The translations under genes were made by a program, and so were the position numbers. A DNA stretch of 64,000 nt. Origin: Ulota crispa. Its lineage: Eukaryota; Streptophyta; Bryopsida; Orthotrichales; Orthotrichaceae. Shown piece by piece: positions 3,001-30,961 of the stretch (the stretch's first letter is position 1; each line of letters opens with the position of its first letter). The notes beneath the pieces were generated by a model that saw only the letters and a list, made by a program, of their open reading frames with translations, ran no database searches and was not told the origin of the DNA. The stretch is taken from contig OY987248.1 of the NCBI GenBank assembly GCA_963920765.1, positions 8,962,539 to 9,026,538 of the forward strand, in the 5' to 3' direction.

Positions 3001-6000
3001 AAAGGTTAGTCGAAGTTTTGCAACAAGAGCCACATTTGTGTACACTGGGTTTGAAGGTGACAGTTTGGTCGTGATGCTGAGCTTCTAACCAGAGGTGCCA
3101 ACTGTGAATTGCTAAATGATTGTGCTAAAACTTCATGTTAAACGCTCTGATCTTCAAACATTTTTCATACTTTTATTTTCTTTGTTTTTTATGAGCTTCT
3201 AACCAGAGTTGCCAAATGTGAATTTTCACAAGTACCTCAAGTGGCTATAAAGACATTGCTAAATGCGCTAAAACTTCATGTTTGACACACTGATCTTCAA
3301 ACACACATTTTTCATGCTTTTTTTTCTCTGTTTTTTTGAGCTTCTGTCCAGAGGTGCCAACTGTGAATTTTCATAAGTACCTCAAGTGGCTATATTGACA
3401 CTGCTAAATGTGCTAGAACTTCATGTTCAACACACTGCTCCAAACATTTTTCACACTTTTATTTTCTTTGCTTTTCATTTTTTAAAGCTTAAGTTTTGTT
3501 TTCGCCACATTTTTGTGAAACCGTTTTGCTGTTTTTGGCAGGTGATGAGCCACGAGATCCGGACGCCGTTGAACGGCGTGATAGGAATGGCGTCGGTGCT
3601 GTTGGACACGGCGCCGACGGCGGAGCAGCAGGAGTGCCTGGAGACGATCCGGACGTCGGGGGAGTGCCTGCTGTCGATCATCAACGACATCCTGGACTTC
3701 TCCAAGATCGACGCCGGCAAGCTCACCATCAGCAGCGTGCCGAGCAACCTGCGCAACGTGGTGGAGGAGGTGGGCAGCATGCTGGCGCTGCGCGTGGAGC
3801 CCAAGGGCGTCGAGATGGTGGTCCGCTACCGCCCCGCGCTCTCCGCCGTCTTCGTCGATGCCGTGCGCTTGCGGCAAGTGCTCATCAACCTCGTCGGCAA
3901 TGCCTGCAAGTTCACCCACGCGGGGACCATCGCCGTCGACGTCTCGCTCGTCTGCGAGGGCTGTCACCAGGGCTTGAATACTGGGGAGCTTCACTGCTCG
4001 CACTGCAAGTCCAACAACCCCTCCCAAATCTCCAAAAAGGTAACTCAGTTTTGCTGGACAAGCAGGTGTAGCTTTATTGATTTACTAGAGTATGGGCACA
4101 CGCTCTGCGCGAGTTGGATGTGCATGGATAATGCAACATTCGACTTTATAGAAAATCAATATTTCACAATTGGTTTTGAATTAACCATGATGCACCGTCA
4201 CTTTGGTTGTCTTTTAAAACCAAAAATAGTAATTGCCCTCATCACAATGATACTGTTTAGGAAAATTTGATGAATACCCTTGAAGTTTGCAATATTTGTA
4301 TAGATGTCCTTGGTTTTTCAAAAATTGCACAAATGCCCTTGGACCATACTTTTTAGGCGTTTCTTTTGGTGTGCACGCCACTTCCTTCTCCCTTTGTGTG
4401 CACACAAAATGGGAAAGAAGCATAGTGTGCACAAAGGGAGAAGGAAATGGCATGCACAACAAAAGAAACGCCTAAAAATTATGGTCCGAGGGCATTTGTG
4501 CAATTTTTGAAAAACCAAGGATATCTATACCAATATGGCAAACTTCAAGGGTATTCATTAAATTATCCCTACTTTTTAATATTTTACTGGGAGGTGTTTA
4601 ACATTTTGTTGGTTTTCTACCACATGGTTGGAGGGTGCTTGGTGTTTTATATCTGGGACGTCCTTTATTGCTTCAGCTTACACTAAAAAAGTTCTAAAAG
4701 ATTCTGGAAAAGGAATGGAATCAGAAATCCTCCCACTTATTAGGGGCGGTTTAGACTACGTCCCAGGTCCCATTTGACGAAGTCCCACAACATTGCAAAA
4801 TCCCATCTTTCTGAGCTAGAGAAGATGGGAAAAGATGGGACTTGGGCTAAAAGATGGGTCTGCCAAAATGCTAGATTCAATCTTGGAGTGAAGTCCCACT
4901 TTTTTTGGCGCCAAAACTTGGAAAAGTGCTGCCATGTAGGCTCCATGTAAGCAAGTGGGATGTGGGACTTGGGACATAGTTTGAAACGCAAAGTCCCGTC
5001 TTTTGCCTCTCAGCCAATCAGATTCTCAGATTTCATCAAATTTCAGTGGGACTTGGGACGTGGGACGTAGTAGTCTGAACCGCCCCTTAGTGTAGATAGA
5101 TAGATGTGCTGAACTTTGCCATTGTCAATGTAATGGAAACCCTTTGCTCAGGTTTTCCCCGTGGACGTAGCGCGAGGACTGGACGACGCCGCGCTGCCAA
5201 CCGGGTACTGGGACCCCGGCGACCCGGAGCCGATATTTGTGCACACTCCAGACAGCGGGCAACGCAGGAGCCGCGCGCTGGAGAACATCCGCGCACATAT
5301 GTCGCTGTGCGAGTCCTACAAGGGACTCACCATCGACAAGCTCGGCGCCATCGCCAAGCTCTCCAACACAGGAGATCTGTTCGCCGAAGGCATCATCATG
5401 GGGAAGTCGGATCCCATTACACAGGACTCCGACGTGGAGATGCCGGTTTTTACCAACCATAACAAGAGGAAGCGGCTCTACGGGCGGATGCAAGAGGATC
5501 AGAGCGTTGAACACCATATTAGGTAAGGTAGCAGCACTCTTAACTGTCAAATTAAGGGTTTTGAACATGATGATTATTAATAAACATCTAGCAAATTGTA
5601 GGATCCTGTTAGCAAGAGAAAAATAATGAGTTTGCACTTTTTAATGTAATATTTGGATACTGTGAGAATAAGTTGTGAATGTTTAAGGAGCCAACTACAA
5701 TTGCACCTAATACCAATACTAAGGTTTCATGTTCACATGTTGTACATTCTTGTAATTATATCTATTCACTTCCACAAATTTTCCAAGATTTTAGAGGTGA
5801 TGGTTATGGGTGTTGCTAGTTATGGATGTTGCTACCTTAAATTGAGAAGAACAGTACATTTTAAGACTTTCACTATTTTTGTCATTATGTACAATTTAGT
5901 ATTTTACAAAAAAACAAGCTTGCACTTTCTTGTACAATAGTGAAGTCTTAGTGTTTGCCTGCAAGAATTTCAAGTAATCATAACTAGGAGCTATAGCTAT

Positions 6001-9000
6001 GCCTACATATACTATATGTATGTAAGATTAACCCCTAAAGGACCAAGCAATCCATAGTAAGCAATACAATACGATGTATTTTTCTTGTATTTGGAGTGAA
6101 TCCACACCTTTATTACATTTGAGATCAACAAAGAAGTTAGAATATAGATCAATGCTGTTCTAGTGAGGTAGTCACGATCCCAAATTAAAACTTTTTGTTG
6201 GTAGCAAATGCTAGTTATACAGCTGCATGCATACTATGTACTATGGTTGCTTGATTGTTTAAGGGTTAAGGTGGAGCACAAAATGGTCCCTTCGTTTTTT
6301 TCAGTTACCTAATATGGTGTTGCTGTTGTCCGTAGCAACTACGGGGATGATAGCTCCAAACCTGTCGAAGAAGCTGAGTTGTGCACCACGCCGAGTTCGT
6401 GGTACTCTGAGCGAGGGAACGCCGACACGACGACGAACTGCGACGCTCCCACCACCAGTGGGAGTGACAGGGATTCGGACGGTGAGACCGATGCGCACGT
6501 GGCGCAGAACTCCCGCGTGGTTCGGTGGTTTCGGTTCTCGGTGATCGACACGGGCATCGGGATTGCCGCGGACATGTTGGATTCGTTGTTCGAGAAGTTC
6601 ACGCAGTGCAGTCCTAGTACCACGAGTACTTACGGTGGTACTGGTCTTGGCTTGGCTGTCTCCAAACGCCTTGTAAGTTGGCTTCCTGCTCTTCCATCTC
6701 TCCTCTGACAGTAACCCCAAATATGATTTTCTCACTTTTAGCTGAAGGGTTTATTTCTCTCAAGGTAGACAGACTCTCACCCCAGAATGCACGCAGGTAG
6801 GGAAAAATTGGCAAAAATTGGAATGAATGAATGATTTGCACACATTCATCCACTTAGCTTACTAATATAAGCTACTTTCATCCAAAATCTAGCGAACATG
6901 GTGCTTGAGTAAGGAGGAATGTGGCGATTTCATCCACTTTTTCTCACAAATTTCTTAGTGTTGGGCTAGCTAGAAGCAATTTGAGGTGAGAATTAGGCAC
7001 AAATTTGCCAAAAAAAAGATCCCTGGCTGAAGTAGCTAAAAACTCTGCTTAAAAAAAGTTAAAATTTTCAAATTTAATACAGTTAAGTTTAGAAGTTTTT
7101 TTTTTAAAGCTGCATGAAAATTTTGGTAGCAATCTTGTGAAGTTTAGCTAGTTCCAGAGATGAGTGCTCCTCTTATGTAATCTAATATAGTGATGTTTGG
7201 ATAAGGTCAACCTTTGTAAGAGAAACATTTGGATAGTGTCAAGGTCTCCTCTTTTTTTATGTTTGGATAATATCAAGGTCCTCCGATCTCTTTTTTGTGT
7301 TTTGTGTTCTAGGGGTATTTAAATAGAGTGTTTGTTTACGGTCCATGCTTGGATATGGCCAGCATTTTTTTCTCTCTTACCCGAGACATTGACCTTATCC
7401 AAGCATCATTGTAGTTGGCGAGTTAAGACTAGAACAAGAGTTTTGACCTCCCTATTTTAACTCCATGTAAGTTTTTTTAAGTGACAAGGGGATAGGGTCA
7501 ACTGAAGAGATTCCAAAAACCAAAATGGTCCTCAAAATCCAGCATTTCCTCTTGATTCCTTGGTTTTTCAAAACAAACTAGAAAAGTAAATACCCATATG
7601 AAGTGGTCGGTTATCTTAAGTTTCAGGCCTACTTTTGAAAAATTGTTTTTTCAATCTTCTAGTGTAAGTTTTACCCTTTACGCCTCCTAATGTTTTGCAT
7701 TCTCTACTATTGCACCCTTTTCCGCAGTAAAGCTCATCAAAACAGTAAAACAATGTCCGAAACCGCAACAATACTTCAGTGAGGAATTCATAACCAATGA
7801 CCCAGTGTGGAACCCAATTAGTTGACTTTACATTTAGTTGGCTAAGTACCAAAGCTTTGAAACACCATATTCGTTCAATTGGGAAAAAGGGTACACTTTG
7901 GGACTTCTGAATTTGGCATTTTGGAGAGTATTTTGGCAATTTTAAAGTGAGTGTTTTATCATAATTCCTTCAAGATCCTACATCATTGACGTAAGATCTT
8001 GAAGAAAATCATCATAACATTCACTCTACATCACCAAATTACTTTCAAAAATGCAAAATTCAGAAGTCCCAAAATGTATCCTATTTCTCAATTTAACAAA
8101 TATGGTGTTTTGAACCTTGAACTCAAGATGTAAGTCAAAGAAGAGGATTAGAAACATATTGCATTTCCTGGCGTTTTTTTTGTGGTTTCCTAGCTCTAGT
8201 TAGACGGAGTGTTTTGTATACAGTGAATGCTTGGATATCGTTTTCTTCTTGACCTTATCCAAGCATCACTATAGTGTGCGAGTGCTATAACAAGAGTTGA
8301 CTAAGTACCAAAGCCTTGAACCTTGAACTCAAAATGTAAGACAAAGAAGAGGATTGGATTTCCTGGTTGTTTTTTTGTGGTTTTTGTTGCATATTCTGGT
8401 GCCGCACTTCCTCATGTTGTTGTTGTCATGGTATCCCCAGGTGGAGCTCATGGGCGGCACCATCGGCGTGGAAAGCGAGGAAGGCAAAGGCTCGAGATTC
8501 ACGTTCACGTTGCCGCTGGAGCTCGACGCATCCTCCGAGGTACCAGACAAACCTCCCACGATCTCAACCGAGTCCACCGCCACCGACACCGCCACCGACA
8601 CTTGCTCGCACCGCCGAAAGAAGCGCGTGCTGGTAGTAGACCGGCACGAGATGACGAAAGAAGTGCTGTGTGACCAAATCCAAGCGTGGGGGTTGGACGC
8701 CACGTCCTGCAACAACGTCGACGAAGCCATGGCCATCTTGAAACACTTCCAACACCATACTAGGTAAATTGGGAAAAACAGTTCATTCTGGGACTTTCAC
8801 TATTTTTGCCGTTATGGGTATATATTAGTTTATCACAAAAAAAACAAGAGTGCATTTTCTTTTCTTGTATAATAGTGATGTCTTAGTGATTGTCTCCAAG
8901 AATTTCAATAATTACAACTTTTGAACAATAGCTATGCCTAAATTTTTGGGAATGACTAGGGAGACACCCCTATAGCCCAACTTATTAAATTTGAGATTAT

Positions 9001-12000
9001 TATTACGTTGAAATACAAAATCAAATCAAAACAATACTTTAGCACACATCTGCATCTGCAAGCATTGCAAACATAACAAACATGTCTCATTTGTGCATGG
9101 TCAAGAGTTAAAACTAGTTGTTCCCTTTGTTTGTAAGTTTAACTCTTGACCATGTCACAAATGAGACGTATTTGTTGTATGTTTGCAATGCATGCAGCAA
9201 ATGTGTGCTAAAATATTGTTTTGATTTGATTTCATATTTCAACGTAATAATAATCTTTATAGGTTGGGCTATAGGGGTGTCTCCCTAGTCGTTCCCAAAT
9301 TTTTAGAAGTGAAATTAAGGTGAAGTACAAAATGGTCCCTCCGTTTATCCCAATTCACCTAACATGGTGTTTTGACCCACACAATCAGACTCCCATTCCA
9401 AGTGGCAATCATCGAGCGCTCAGTCGTGGAGCTCTTCGGCCATGAAATGCGCAAGCTGACAACTCAACTCCCAGACATCAAACCTTTGCAACTGGTGATG
9501 CTGGGACGTGTGGCAAACAGTCTTCCCTCGCAGAGCATGCTCGTCGAGCTGGGCTGTTGCGCCAGCTTCAGCAGGCCCGCGCGTCAAGCGTACCTGCGAG
9601 ACGCGTTGTCGGTGGCGTTCTCCGGCGACGGAGACGAGAAGTTCGTCCCGACGAAACCGGACTTCTCGCTCGACATGATGCGAGCTGCGCCGAAGAACTT
9701 GCGATTCTCGTCGTCTGTCGGTAACGGCAACGGCAACGGGCGGCGCAAGAAGAGCGTTGAGCTGGTGGACAGTCCTGTTGTGGGGAGCCCCGTGTCTCAG
9801 AGTTCGTCTCTGGAGGACACCCTGGCTCGCAGCCCCAAAATTTTGGTTGTGGTACGCCCTTGCTGAATTAATACCCGGTTTTTCTACTTTTTTCTGCCTT
9901 TCTAAACACCCCCTGTTAACAAAAAAAAAAACGTAAAATAAATAAATAAATAATTGACATTCACTACATGTGAATTTTTTTTATAGCACAACTAGCAATC
10001 ATCACATATAAAAATAATTAGAAATATAAGTAGCAAGTATCACATGTAAAAAAAATGATAACTGTTCAATAAATACTAAAAAAATACTTGACAATACTCT
10101 TTGTGATTGAATTCCCCCCCTTTTACAATATCCTCCTGTCCTTCTATAATCGAATCTGCCCTAAATCTTGAACAACATATGTGAAACACTGAAAAGTCTG
10201 TTTAGGACATATAAAGTTTATAATTACATGAATAGTCCATATTTAGTTTTAGTTCAGGGAAAATGTGAAGGATACCCCTGGAATTTGCAATGTTTATACA
10301 AGTGCCCCTGATTTTATCAAAAATTGCACGAATACCCTTGGACCATAATATTCAAGCGTTTGGTTTGTTGTGCATGCTTGCTTCGTTCTCCCTTTGTGCA
10401 CATGTTTCTTTTTTTCATGTACTGCGTGTGCACATAGGGAGAAGGAAGAGGTGTTGCACAACAAGAACAAACGCTTGAAAAGTAGGGTCTGAGGATTTTT
10501 GTGCAATTTCTAATAAAACCAGGGGCACCTGTATATATATGGCAAATTTTAGGGGTATCCATCAAAAAAAATTATAATATTAATTACATGGCAACTTAAT
10601 CATAAGTAATAATCCAAAAATTGCTTAGGTTTGCAAAAGATTGGGAGGTACTTGCAAAACATCAAGAATTATGTTCAAATAAAAAGATATGAAATACTTT
10701 GAGAGTAACATATGTGAAACAGTGAAAAGTTTACAATGTTTAGGACTTAAAAAGTTCATAATTACATGAATAATGCATATTTAGTTAAAACGTGGCATAT
10801 GGGTAAAGTTTTGTGATGATACTAGTTGTTAGATTAGTGTACTTTGTATAGTTTTAGTTGAGTTTTTTAACGCAAATGCAGATGGCGTTTACCTTTTATG
10901 AATGGTAGTGTTTTTGGCATTAACTTGACGTTGCATTGGCAACTGTTGATTGATTGTCAGGAGGACAACGAAGTGAATCAAATGGTTGCGCAACGACTTC
11001 TCAACAATCTGGGCTGCTCTGTGGACGTGGCGTGCAATGGTGTGGAAGCCATTGGTTTGTTGGAGCGCTCTGATGCTTATGACATTATTTTCATGGACTG
11101 CCAAATGCCTGTAAGTTTAGCAGCACCTTTTCCCTTTTCATGTTTTATATTGTTTACTTGCAGTGAGAATGTTTTTCCAGTGTGGGACAGATTTTTAGTT
11201 TGTGTGGAGAATTTTCAAGAGCAGGAATTTTTTTGCAAATAGTCAGGGTTAAGGGTGAAACGTCCATGGTGGTCCAGAATCAATAAGAAGTGAGAAAACA
11301 ACAAACTAGTTTCAAACCCATGCATGGAAATGCGCTAGAAATTAACAGGTTTGGAAATTGGAAATGGTGTTTTGGCAAGTTTTTTTGCAAGAAGCACATG
11401 AGTTTTGGGGATTTGAGTTTCCCGAAGTCAGAAAACGTCAATTGCCATTGCCAATTTTGATGCGATGTGGAAGTTGGCCTTAAGTGGTCATGTTCGTTTG
11501 ACTCTTTTGTGATTTGTTGATATTTTTAGTACTCACAAATGGTTAAAGAAAACAAGACCACTCACAAATAAGTTTTGTTTGCCTCGTAAGCATTTATGTC
11601 ATTTTTTCAAAGATTGCCAAGATTCTTTTTCTCCATGCTTGTTTGGAAAACAGACAAACTTGTGAATCTAAGTTCTTGTGGTAACTAGAAAATCAACCAA
11701 TTACCTAAATTTTGTTAAATTAGTGGTATTCATGCGCCAAGGTTATGACATATATCTTTACTAAGGTCTAATCTCAATTAATATAGATTTTGGATTTACT
11801 TTATGCAATCTAAACCGCGCCAAACTAATGGCATATTGATGACATTACATGTCATGTATGATTCACGTTTGAGGTTGACCACTTCAGACGTGCCACCAAC
11901 TAAAAGTACTTAAATTTGGCTACAGGGGCACGTACTTCAGGTGAAAGGATAAACACTTCGACTCTTGACCAATCTCATTGCTAGTTTCCTTAACATAGCT

Positions 12001-26356: not shown

Positions 26357-27004
26357 CCCCCCACCCCTATCCCGTGCTCCTTGATCCTTGTGCCCCCATA
26401 TCCCCATGCCCTCTATCCCCGTGCTCCCATATCCCCGTGCCCTCTATCCTCGTGCCCCCATATCCTTGTGCCCCCTTATCCCCGTGCCCCCTTATCCTCA
26501 TGCCCCCTTATCCCCGTGCCCCCTTATCCCCGTGCCCCCTTATCCTCATGCCCCCTTATCCCCGTGCCCCCTTATCCCCGTGCCCCCTTATCCTCATGCC
26601 CCCTTATCCCCGTGCCCCCTTATCCCCGTGCCCCCTTATCCTCATGCCCCCTTATCCCCGTGCCCCCTTATCTTTGTGCCCCCTTATCCCCATGCCCCCT
26701 TATCCTCGTGCCCCCTTATCCTCGTGCCCCCTTATCCTCATGCCCCCTTATCCCCGTGCCCCCTTATCCTTGTGCCCCCTTATCCCCATGCCCCCTTATC
26801 CTCGTGCCCCCTTATCCTCGTGCCCCCTTATCCTCGTGCCCCCTTATCCCTGTGCCCCCTTATCCTCGTGCCCCCTTATCCCTGTGCCCCCTTATCCTCG
26901 TGCCCCCTTATCCCTGTGCCCCCTTATCCTCGTGCCCCCTTATCCTTATGCCCCCTTATTCCCGTGCCCTCTTATTCCCGTGCTCCCTTATCCCCGTGCC
27001 CTCT
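26357..27004. repeat. 16-bp minisatellite, about 40 copies
   Basis: Tandem array of the unit CCTTATCCCCGTGCCC and variants with CCTCA, CCTCG or CCTTG in the middle; a 48-bp higher-order pattern of three units is visible at 26490-26650. Because 16 is not a multiple of 3, all three + frames stay open (217-267 codons of PLIPVPPYP type), which is an artefact of the repeat. Confidence 0.92.
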
Positions 27005-27940
27005 TTTGGTCAAGAGAAAGTTGTGGTGCAACTGCCAGTGACAATGCAACTACTAGTGACTTGTTGTCCACGTCTAGTGAAGCACATAAAAGAAAGTCAT
27101 AGGTGATTTTACTTTATCCATTTATGCCTTTTCAATCCTAATCATGCCCAAATCTAGCTTATGCCCAACCCTAATTAATTGAACGCTATTACATGATAGG
27201 CCCTAACTGACTGACGGCTATTCTTTTATTTATTTATATTTATATATATATATATATAGAAAGAAAAATATGGTATGTGAAGCCAAAGCTTTTCATGTGC
27301 TATGGGGTTTTTTTGTATGGGAAAATTGTTTGTCCACGAAGGTCAAGCTTTTTATGTGCCACATTTGAAGAGATGCTATTATGCAACCATGATGATTTGA
27401 GTTAAATTGCAAAGTTTCATGTGGTGCATGAGAAGATTCGATATGGTCTTATCAAGACAAAGCGGAGGTTTTGAGCCCACTACACTATATAAGCTGGCAG
27501 TCTTAGGGATTAACAATTGAGGTCTAATAAATTTTTCAGGAACTAATGACTGTATTTGCACCAAAACCTCAACCTCCGGTAAAAAATGATCATCCCATGA
27601 ACTATACGAATAGGAGATTGGCTAACCTAGTGCAAGCCTCTGAGCAATGCCAGCCACAAAAACATTACTAAGAAAGAAAGAAAAAAACTACACGTGAGAT
27701 TTATGCAGAGAGCAAATGCTGAGCACAAGTATACTTACAAACGATTTAGGTGCTCGTACCTATGCTGATTTATTCTTAATTCCAACAAAGAAAAGCAATT
27801 GCATCAACTTTCAGTGCATAAAAAGCAATTGCATCAATCAACTTACACTGCATAATATTGACAACAGTTCTATGAAACGTCACAGTTCAATCTGTCAAGC
27901 AGAACAGAGGTTATCCTACGAAAAGATATGCATAGCTTGT
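27005..27940. other. Intergenic, downstream of the BORCS8-like gene
   Basis: AT-rich with a (TA)n run near 27240-27260. It includes the 3' UTR of the gene on the minus strand. No other gene seen. Confidence 0.5.
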
Positions 27941-29994: not shown

Positions 29995-30466
29995 TTTCCT
30001 CGTCAAACATTCGTCACTTCTACAACAAATGATCCAACAAAGAATAAAAGAAATAGAAAAAAAAAGGCATATTGCACTAGCAGATGCAGGCACGCCTACC
30101 TCCTTGGAGCGCATCTTTGCATGCAGACGGCTGCATCCTCAAAATACCGATCAAACATGCAACCAAACAATCAGTTCACTCTCGTCTTCAAAACCAGCAA
30201 CAACACGCAATCGCGCAACGCCATCTGCAAACATCAATCATCCACACACACTGTCAATTCACGCAACCAATAACTCCACAAGCACCAGAATCCAAAAAGT
30301 GATCATTAAACAGAAGCACTCTCACCGTCTCAACTCCAAATTCGAAAAAAATTGCTTCAAACCCTAGCAACAACGCATTTCTCCCTAAATCCAACTCATA
30401 CAAATATTAATTCTAATTACCGTCGTCCAACGAATCTCCCGATCTAATTAGCAAGCAATTATCCAA

Positions 30467-30752
<286 letters not shown>

Positions 30753-30961
30753 CATTACCTCGGACGTCAAAGGTATGGCCTCCGAAAGATTCTGAAGTAA
30801 AATACGCTAATTCGTTTCGGACGACAGCACGCCCTGAGAATCGTGAAACTCTCGCTCCTGCCTCAGTCTTTCCCTCTGGAACATCACAGCACAATTCCAA
30901 AGCACGAGAGTTTTGAGAAAGTTGTGTCGCTGCAACGAAACGGACAAACGAGGTGCATATT

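Follow-up and report, generated by a model that had tools for sequence, protein, structure and literature searches.

Plant DNA transposons inserted into exons are said to be removed through splice sites near their ends, as reportedly with dSpm introns and with the Ds-made intron of maize that Giroux is said to have described in 1994. Single transposon-made introns are already known in maize and rice; the kind of event considered here is known, and the variant is new. Table 1 of PMC3443670 lists 35 intron gains by transposon insertion in Oryza, Zea, Drosophila, and Oikopleura. Introners, as one survey describes them, are nonautonomous DNA elements with terminal inverted repeats (TIRs) and target site duplications (TSDs) that contribute one splice site and recruit the other upon insertion (PMC9860276). 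The same survey reports codon gains, including an Aureococcus family that adds 12 nt, and no introners in land plants among the genomes surveyed. We analyzed a 64,000-nt stretch of the genome of the moss Ulota crispa (contig OY987248.1, C7:8962539-9026538; the window), which contains a gene for a hybrid histidine kinase with HisKA, HATPase_c, and receiver domains (Pfam). Predicted introns 4 and 6 of this gene are copies of one miniature inverted-repeat transposable element (MITE). We propose, with a probability of about 0.83, that both introns were gained when two copies of this high-copy MITE inserted into kinase exons, the TIR providing the donor and the host the acceptor.

Introns made by Ds and dSpm are likewise exon-inserted DNA transposons, but they are single alleles, in contrast to the seven inferred introns in six genes reported here. 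Like introners as outlined in PMC9860276, the moss MITE has TIRs and 4-bp TSDs, carries one splice site, and co-opts the other. Unlike them, it is present in a land plant, has its donor 13 nt into the TIR, and takes as acceptor a variable host AG 4 to 19 nt past the TSD. The cases in the corresponding part of PMC3443670 are alike in that a transposon creates the intron, but that part mentions no one plant family whose copies carry a donor in a common TIR. The available text of PMC10487979, on MSH1 introns in green plants including bryophytes, cites introners and claims none in mosses, and that of PMC12235515 mentions introners in dinoflagellates. We recognized no report of an introner-like MITE in a land plant among the papers listed from the open PMC literature, outside which most subscription papers lie. 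Should the broader version of our reading given below hold, at least seven introns of this origin would contradict the report that land plants lack introners. The origin of new introns is an old question. Here the preinsertion exon, the TSD, and the resulting frame can all be read, with paralogues as controls at three sites, and the mechanism is therefore directly testable in one genome.

The part of the kinase gene that we delimited from Pfam matches, open reading frames (ORFs), and sequence lies on the plus strand at 3542..11110 and starts with the MSHEIR exon at 3542. Exon borders other than those of introns 4 and 6 were read by eye. Predicted intron 4 (5523..6335, plus strand) begins with the donor GTAAGG at 5523 and ends with the acceptor TAG at 6335. 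Predicted intron 6 (8764..9388, plus strand) begins with GTAAAT at 8764 and ends with ATCAG at 9388. Both are bordered on the left by AACACCATAYTAG^GTAA and on the right by its complement, and both donors are in phase 2. The preliminary description, which had read the two introns as copies of one transposon with complementary repeats at their 3' ends and a shared phase, was right on these points. It also placed the predicted exon ends correctly, at 5522/6336 and 8763/9389 (last and first exon base). Of the exon-end residues that it gave, QHHTR holds at intron 6, but EHHIR at intron 4 should be EHHI followed by S (codon AG|C).

The copy that forms predicted intron 4 (el1, 5510..6321, plus strand, sense) was recognized by its TIRs, its homology to the consensus of subfamily S1, and its empty-site frame. 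Its left TIR (5510..5526, AACACCATATTAGGTAA) leaves bases 5510-5522 in the exon, where they encode EHHI plus AG. The right TIR (6305..6321, minus strand) is the exact complement. Read in sense, it is TTACCTAATATGGTGTT, which lacks AG and contains CTAAT 23 nt ahead of the acceptor end, a possible branch point. The target duplication (GTTG at 5506..5509, GCTG at 6322-6325) matches at three of four bases. The first AG past the right TIR is the predicted acceptor, and the predicted spliced product is in frame. The copy that forms predicted intron 6 (el2, 8751..9371, plus strand, sense, also S1) was recognized by TIRs, homology, its empty-site frame, and a paralogue exon. Its left TIR (8751-8767) is AACACCATACTAGGTAA, its right TIR (9355-9371) has two mismatches to the family repeat, and it is flanked by TTCC (8747-8750) and TTGA (9372-9375). 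A third copy of 249 bp (el3, 7861..8109, plus strand) lies within ordinary intron 5 and has an exact TSD (TTGA/TTGA). The two ends of these three copies account for all six matches to the repeat in the window at up to 3 mismatches; shuffled sequence gave a mean of 0.33, and none of 100 shuffles reached six.

The el1 and el2 copies are homologous to each other and, over about 250 aligned nt, 88.4% and 85.8% identical to the S1 consensus. Their homology is broken by different nested sequences. In el1, a nested element at 5527..5837, identified by its inverted repeat, has the ends GGTAGCAGC...GCTACC and a TAA duplication; it may be PIF/Harbinger-like. A second insertion in el1 (6030..6265, ends approximate) appears as a gap in the consensus alignment. 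In el2, inverted repeats and an alignment gap mark a nested fold-back element at 8944..9310 (ends approximate). The nested element with GGTAGCAGC ends also lies directly after GGTAA of the MITE repeat in another copy (L047), on C9, which adjoins a gene that by eye resembles an ammonium transporter. The identical spot in both copies points either to transposition of the whole composite or to a preference of the nesting element for this target.

A genome-wide search with the repeat, as the preliminary description had proposed, covered 274.8 Mb in 157 contigs. At up to 2 mismatches, it found 3061 forward and 3025 reverse ends, a total of 6,086, compared with 106 + 91 = 197 for the reversed pattern. 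The family is a MITE of about 257 bp with an inverted repeat of 28 to 31 bp that starts AACACCATATTAG^GTAAATTGGG. Two subfamilies have common ends, S1, whose consensus was built from 24 copies and measures 257 bp, and S2 (27 copies, 256 bp), and the perfect TIRs of the two consensuses are 28 and 31 bp. For the TSD, we sampled 74 left-right pairs with distinct flanks, at most 3 mismatches per repeat, and a spacing of 180 to 1400 bp; in a few of these, which are compound, one end belongs to two pairs. The flanking 4 bp are duplicated exactly in 42 of the 74 pairs, whereas shifted offsets averaged 0.65 and never exceeded 5. The short uniform length, long TIRs, many copies, and target duplication of fixed length are those of a MITE. 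From the 4-bp TSD, we considered Sola as a candidate superfamily.

We found one continuous open frame across the empty site at seven copies in six genes, all of subfamily S1. Two are el1 and el2 of the kinase, with empty-site frames of 252 and 304 codons. The others lie in a GRDP gene (L044, C8, minus strand; 306 codons; TSD CTGA/CTGA; Pfam GRDP_C), an MBOAT acyltransferase gene (L080, C3, minus strand; 312 codons; TSD AGCA/AGCA; Pfam MBOAT), an ALMT gene (L097, C5; 223 codons; TSD CGGA/TGGA), a WRKY gene (C7:8321600; TSD 1/4; Pfam WRKY), and an unnamed ORF that holds the copy in reversed orientation (L118, C3:13604182; TSD TCAA/TCAA; ORF only). The ALMT gene has a weak Pfam match on its left side, and its right side matches a paralogue in the same frame. 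Sequence-similar predicted introns are thus present, as expected of introners, at unrelated places of several genes. At all seven copies, the unspliced frame hits a stop inside the element.

These seven copies follow one frame rule, which can be read directly in the genomic sequence. With the donor taken at base 13 of the repeat, the first AG that follows the right repeat and TSD ends after 10 host nt at el1, 13 at el2, 7 at GRDP, 4 at MBOAT, 10 at ALMT, 19 at WRKY, and 7 at L118. Each offset is 1 modulo 3, the residue that keeps the frame, and the predicted net changes are +3, 0, +6, +9, +3, -6, and +6 nt, respectively. MBOAT has an additional AG within the target duplication that is also in frame. 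The flanks of nonexonic copies, 134 in all, include 102 with an AG in the first 26 nt, and the frame-keeping residue occurs in 39 of these; against this background, seven of seven in frame has a P value of about 0.001. With its high-copy MITE and 4-bp TSDs, this frame rule, and the uninterrupted paralogues described below, the wider genome supports the intron gain by a DNA transposon that the preliminary description had put forward, with the donor in the inverted repeat and a host-derived acceptor, here the first host AG beyond the repeat. Insertion occurred after codon position 1 in four copies, after position 0 in three, and after position 2 in none (P = 0.06); after position 2, the repeat itself would read TAG. 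The right repeat lacks AG in six of the seven copies, GRDP being the exception. Its branch-like motif is CTAAT in four, CTAAC in el2, TTAAT in WRKY, and CTAGT in GRDP. By hand reading, acceptors inside the element (TTTCAG in el1 and TCACAG in ALMT before the right TIR, and the AG within it in GRDP) would put the downstream sequence out of frame or lead to a stop.

These frames also bear on whether the elements are left unspliced and disable decaying gene copies, which we regard as highly improbable. Such a view would agree with the stops in all seven unspliced frames and with damaged-looking genes in or at which other copies lie (L115 and L105). However, the exonic copies are 84 to 90% identical to the consensus, like other S1 copies (median, 86.8%; n = 31). 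The flanking frames have therefore stayed open while the elements diverged by 10 to 16%. The acceptor frame rule at all seven sites and the retention of HisKA, HATPase, and receiver domains by the kinase also argue against decay.

We used paralogues from the same genome in place of orthologues from related species, and an uninterrupted paralogue is present at three of the seven sites, where the intron is absent along with the element. The GRDP paralogue (C1:21662929-21663471) is 76% identical over residues 3 to 191, and a single 492-aa frame spans the site. Two MBOAT paralogues, L122 and L123, read through the site. Each of them has two other introns that are absent from the element-bearing gene, as in a processed copy; the MITE is the sole interruption of that gene in the stretch compared. 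In a kinase paralogue on C8, the exon is continuous across the el2 site (IVKESIDVGLPFH), and the RLPFQ that follows el2 aligns with GLPFH in the paralogue exon. This paralogue has an intron of its own (C8:15529097-15529243, a gap of about 145 nt), 4 to 5 codons downstream of the el2 position, that the window gene lacks.

The elements might instead have landed near the ends of preexisting introns and taken over their donors, with no intron gained. We judge this quite unlikely. The copy in the Rubisco activase gene, on an exon/intron border, is apparently such a case, and the intron of the kinase paralogue so close downstream of the el2 acceptor would also suit it. However, the paralogues at GRDP, MBOAT, and el2 read as exon, including the RLPFQ stretch. 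The exact TSDs at GRDP, MBOAT, and L118 mean that the empty site is the joined flanks, with no space for an older intron. The takeover of preexisting introns is thus largely refuted at GRDP and MBOAT.

The way in which the loci were chosen must also be weighed. Thirty loci (L001 to L030), which all lie close to the start of contig 1, were taken from the first 100 places listed, with no selection on their flanks. A second set comprised all 18 places with GTAAG at the donor. Later loci were enriched for coding flanks by third-position G+C; all of 8 places and then 30 of 49 were taken. Two further searches for GC flanks matched 23 and 58 places. Then 28 regions were taken piecemeal, including one piece of a paralogue. 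Up to 1 mismatch at one repeat end was tolerated in the searches, and pairs more than 1400 bp apart went unscored. Because the sample is enriched for coding flanks, the ratio of 7 exonic copies to 74 pairs gives no frequency of exonic insertion. Among the 20 paired copies of L001 to L030, none stood out as coding on both sides by a codon score that is itself weak, so most MITE copies probably lie outside exons. The in-frame cases could then be chance picks among thousands of copies by a search that favored GC-rich flanks. Most loci were indeed chosen by GC-periodic flanks, the exonic copies are few, the bias in codon position is weak by itself, and the acceptor rule falls to seven of nine with two doubtful copies. 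However, the position of the AG played no part in the search, yet all seven copies obey the rule. The kinase, GRDP, MBOAT, WRKY, and ALMT genes have independent homology, and paralogues show absence of the element at three of seven sites. We therefore hold chance selection to be the least probable of the explanations considered.

Several observations weigh against intron gain by MITE insertion. We found no paralogue covering the site for el1, ALMT, or L118 (that for WRKY was not searched), and L118 has no Pfam match either. The TSDs at el2 (two of four bases) and WRKY (one of four) are poor. The codon-usage score gave its top rank to the wrong strand at el2, WRKY, and L118 and to an incorrect frame position at ALMT; because this score is too GC-driven to fix strands, the final set was based on reading frames and homology. 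The donor AGGTA is retained in all seven exonic copies, compared with 95 of 134 other ends, but near-identity was demanded in the search and six of the seven were found by the donor end, so this retention is no independent test. At GRDP, CTAGT has lost the branch A and created an AG within the repeat. Three copies outside the set do not fit. The one in the Rubisco activase gene (L105+L124, Pfam, C3:30906600-30907175) apparently lies on an exon border, following codon position 2, so that its reading would terminate at TAG. In L036, which is OPT-like on one side, the donor is lost (AGATA) and the first AG past the TSD is out of frame. L091 has a coding score on both sides, but its TSD matches at none of four bases and its first AG does not keep the frame. 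When L036 and L091 are counted as exonic, seven of nine copies obey the AG rule (P = 0.02).

We suggest the following mechanism. The MITE would insert in a coding exon with a 4-bp target duplication. Because the terminal repeat starts AACACCATATTAG^GTAA, the repeat on the 5' side would provide, 13 nt into the element, a donor of the U2 type. The repeat on the 3' side (TTACCTAATATGGTGTT in el1) may offer a branch-point-like motif 17 to 32 nt ahead of the acceptor end, and the spliceosome would use the first AG of the host exon past the repeat as acceptor. Thirteen nucleotides of transposon would be added to the mature exon, read as xHHI/T or, in a different frame, as NTIL-like residues, and 4 to 19 nt of host sequence would be lost from it. 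Given these lengths, only insertions that have an in-frame host AG and do not follow codon position 2 would survive; selection would remove out-of-frame and position-2 insertions. We infer splicing of the elements as introns, use of the branch point, and this selection from genomic sequence.

In a broader version, which seems to us evenly poised between true and false, the family would be a large-scale introner of a land plant. This MITE, present in several thousand copies, would have made at least seven introns, and its near-palindromic TIR would be a two-sided splice module, with the donor AG^GTAA on one strand and the branch point CTAAT on the other, that needs a nearby in-frame host AG. 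A strict version, in which both orientations would serve, was rejected, because the TIR is symmetrical yet six of the seven exonic copies share one orientation, L118 being reversed, and all are S1. S1 membership is 7 of 7 among exonic copies and 31 of 67 among the others (Fisher P = 0.012). Therefore, the internal sequence also seems to matter.

Exonic copies are also longer, through later nested insertions. Six of the seven exceed 340 bp, compared with 10 of the 67 others (P = 0.0003), and some of those 10 pairs are compound. The near-gene copies L047 and L048 look nested as well, and L059 lacks a right end in the sequence covered. Because near-gene copies are also nested, a preference of the nesting elements for genic targets may explain the excess more simply than would relief of a TIR hairpin.

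Other copies near genes were left out of the exonic set. L059 (SPT16) lies by eye in a gtacgc intron, L062 lies by eye in the 5' leader of a PDR-transporter-like gene, L065 has no TSD, and L115, FBPase-like by eye, has an in-frame stop. L094 abuts an ATG; by eye, two MITE-family ends (C9:16359153-16359439) bracket 28 bp just ahead of an AP2/ERF-like start codon, and the target duplication TCCA takes in the A of the ATG. L063, L058, and L061 were also left out. Weak Pfam matches, below the cutoff, place L081 in an ORF resembling an endonuclease and L012 next to one resembling a pectate lyase. At the Rubisco activase copy, the host donor (CCA|GTAAGG) was apparently destroyed.

Further repeats were seen by eye in the window. 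Two inverted-repeat stretches in kinase introns (4258-4560 and 10256-10575) are alike at their ends (GAAAATTTGATGAATACCC-like), and a similar stretch is nested within the MITE of L048. Another inverted-repeat element (GGGGCGGTTTAGACTACGTCCC...GTAGTCTGAACCGCCCC) occupies 4740-5092, in the kinase intron that precedes the exon at 5153. Elsewhere in the genome, two of the seven contig ends read carry TTTAGGG repeats, and four of the others are N. These repeats and the ALMT, WRKY, and GRDP genes suggest a land-plant host. Long low-complexity arrays at 26385-27041 and 30452-30800 of the window, a CPLIPVPPYPRAP-like repeat and a dinucleotide run that reads LSLSLS, are open in several frames.

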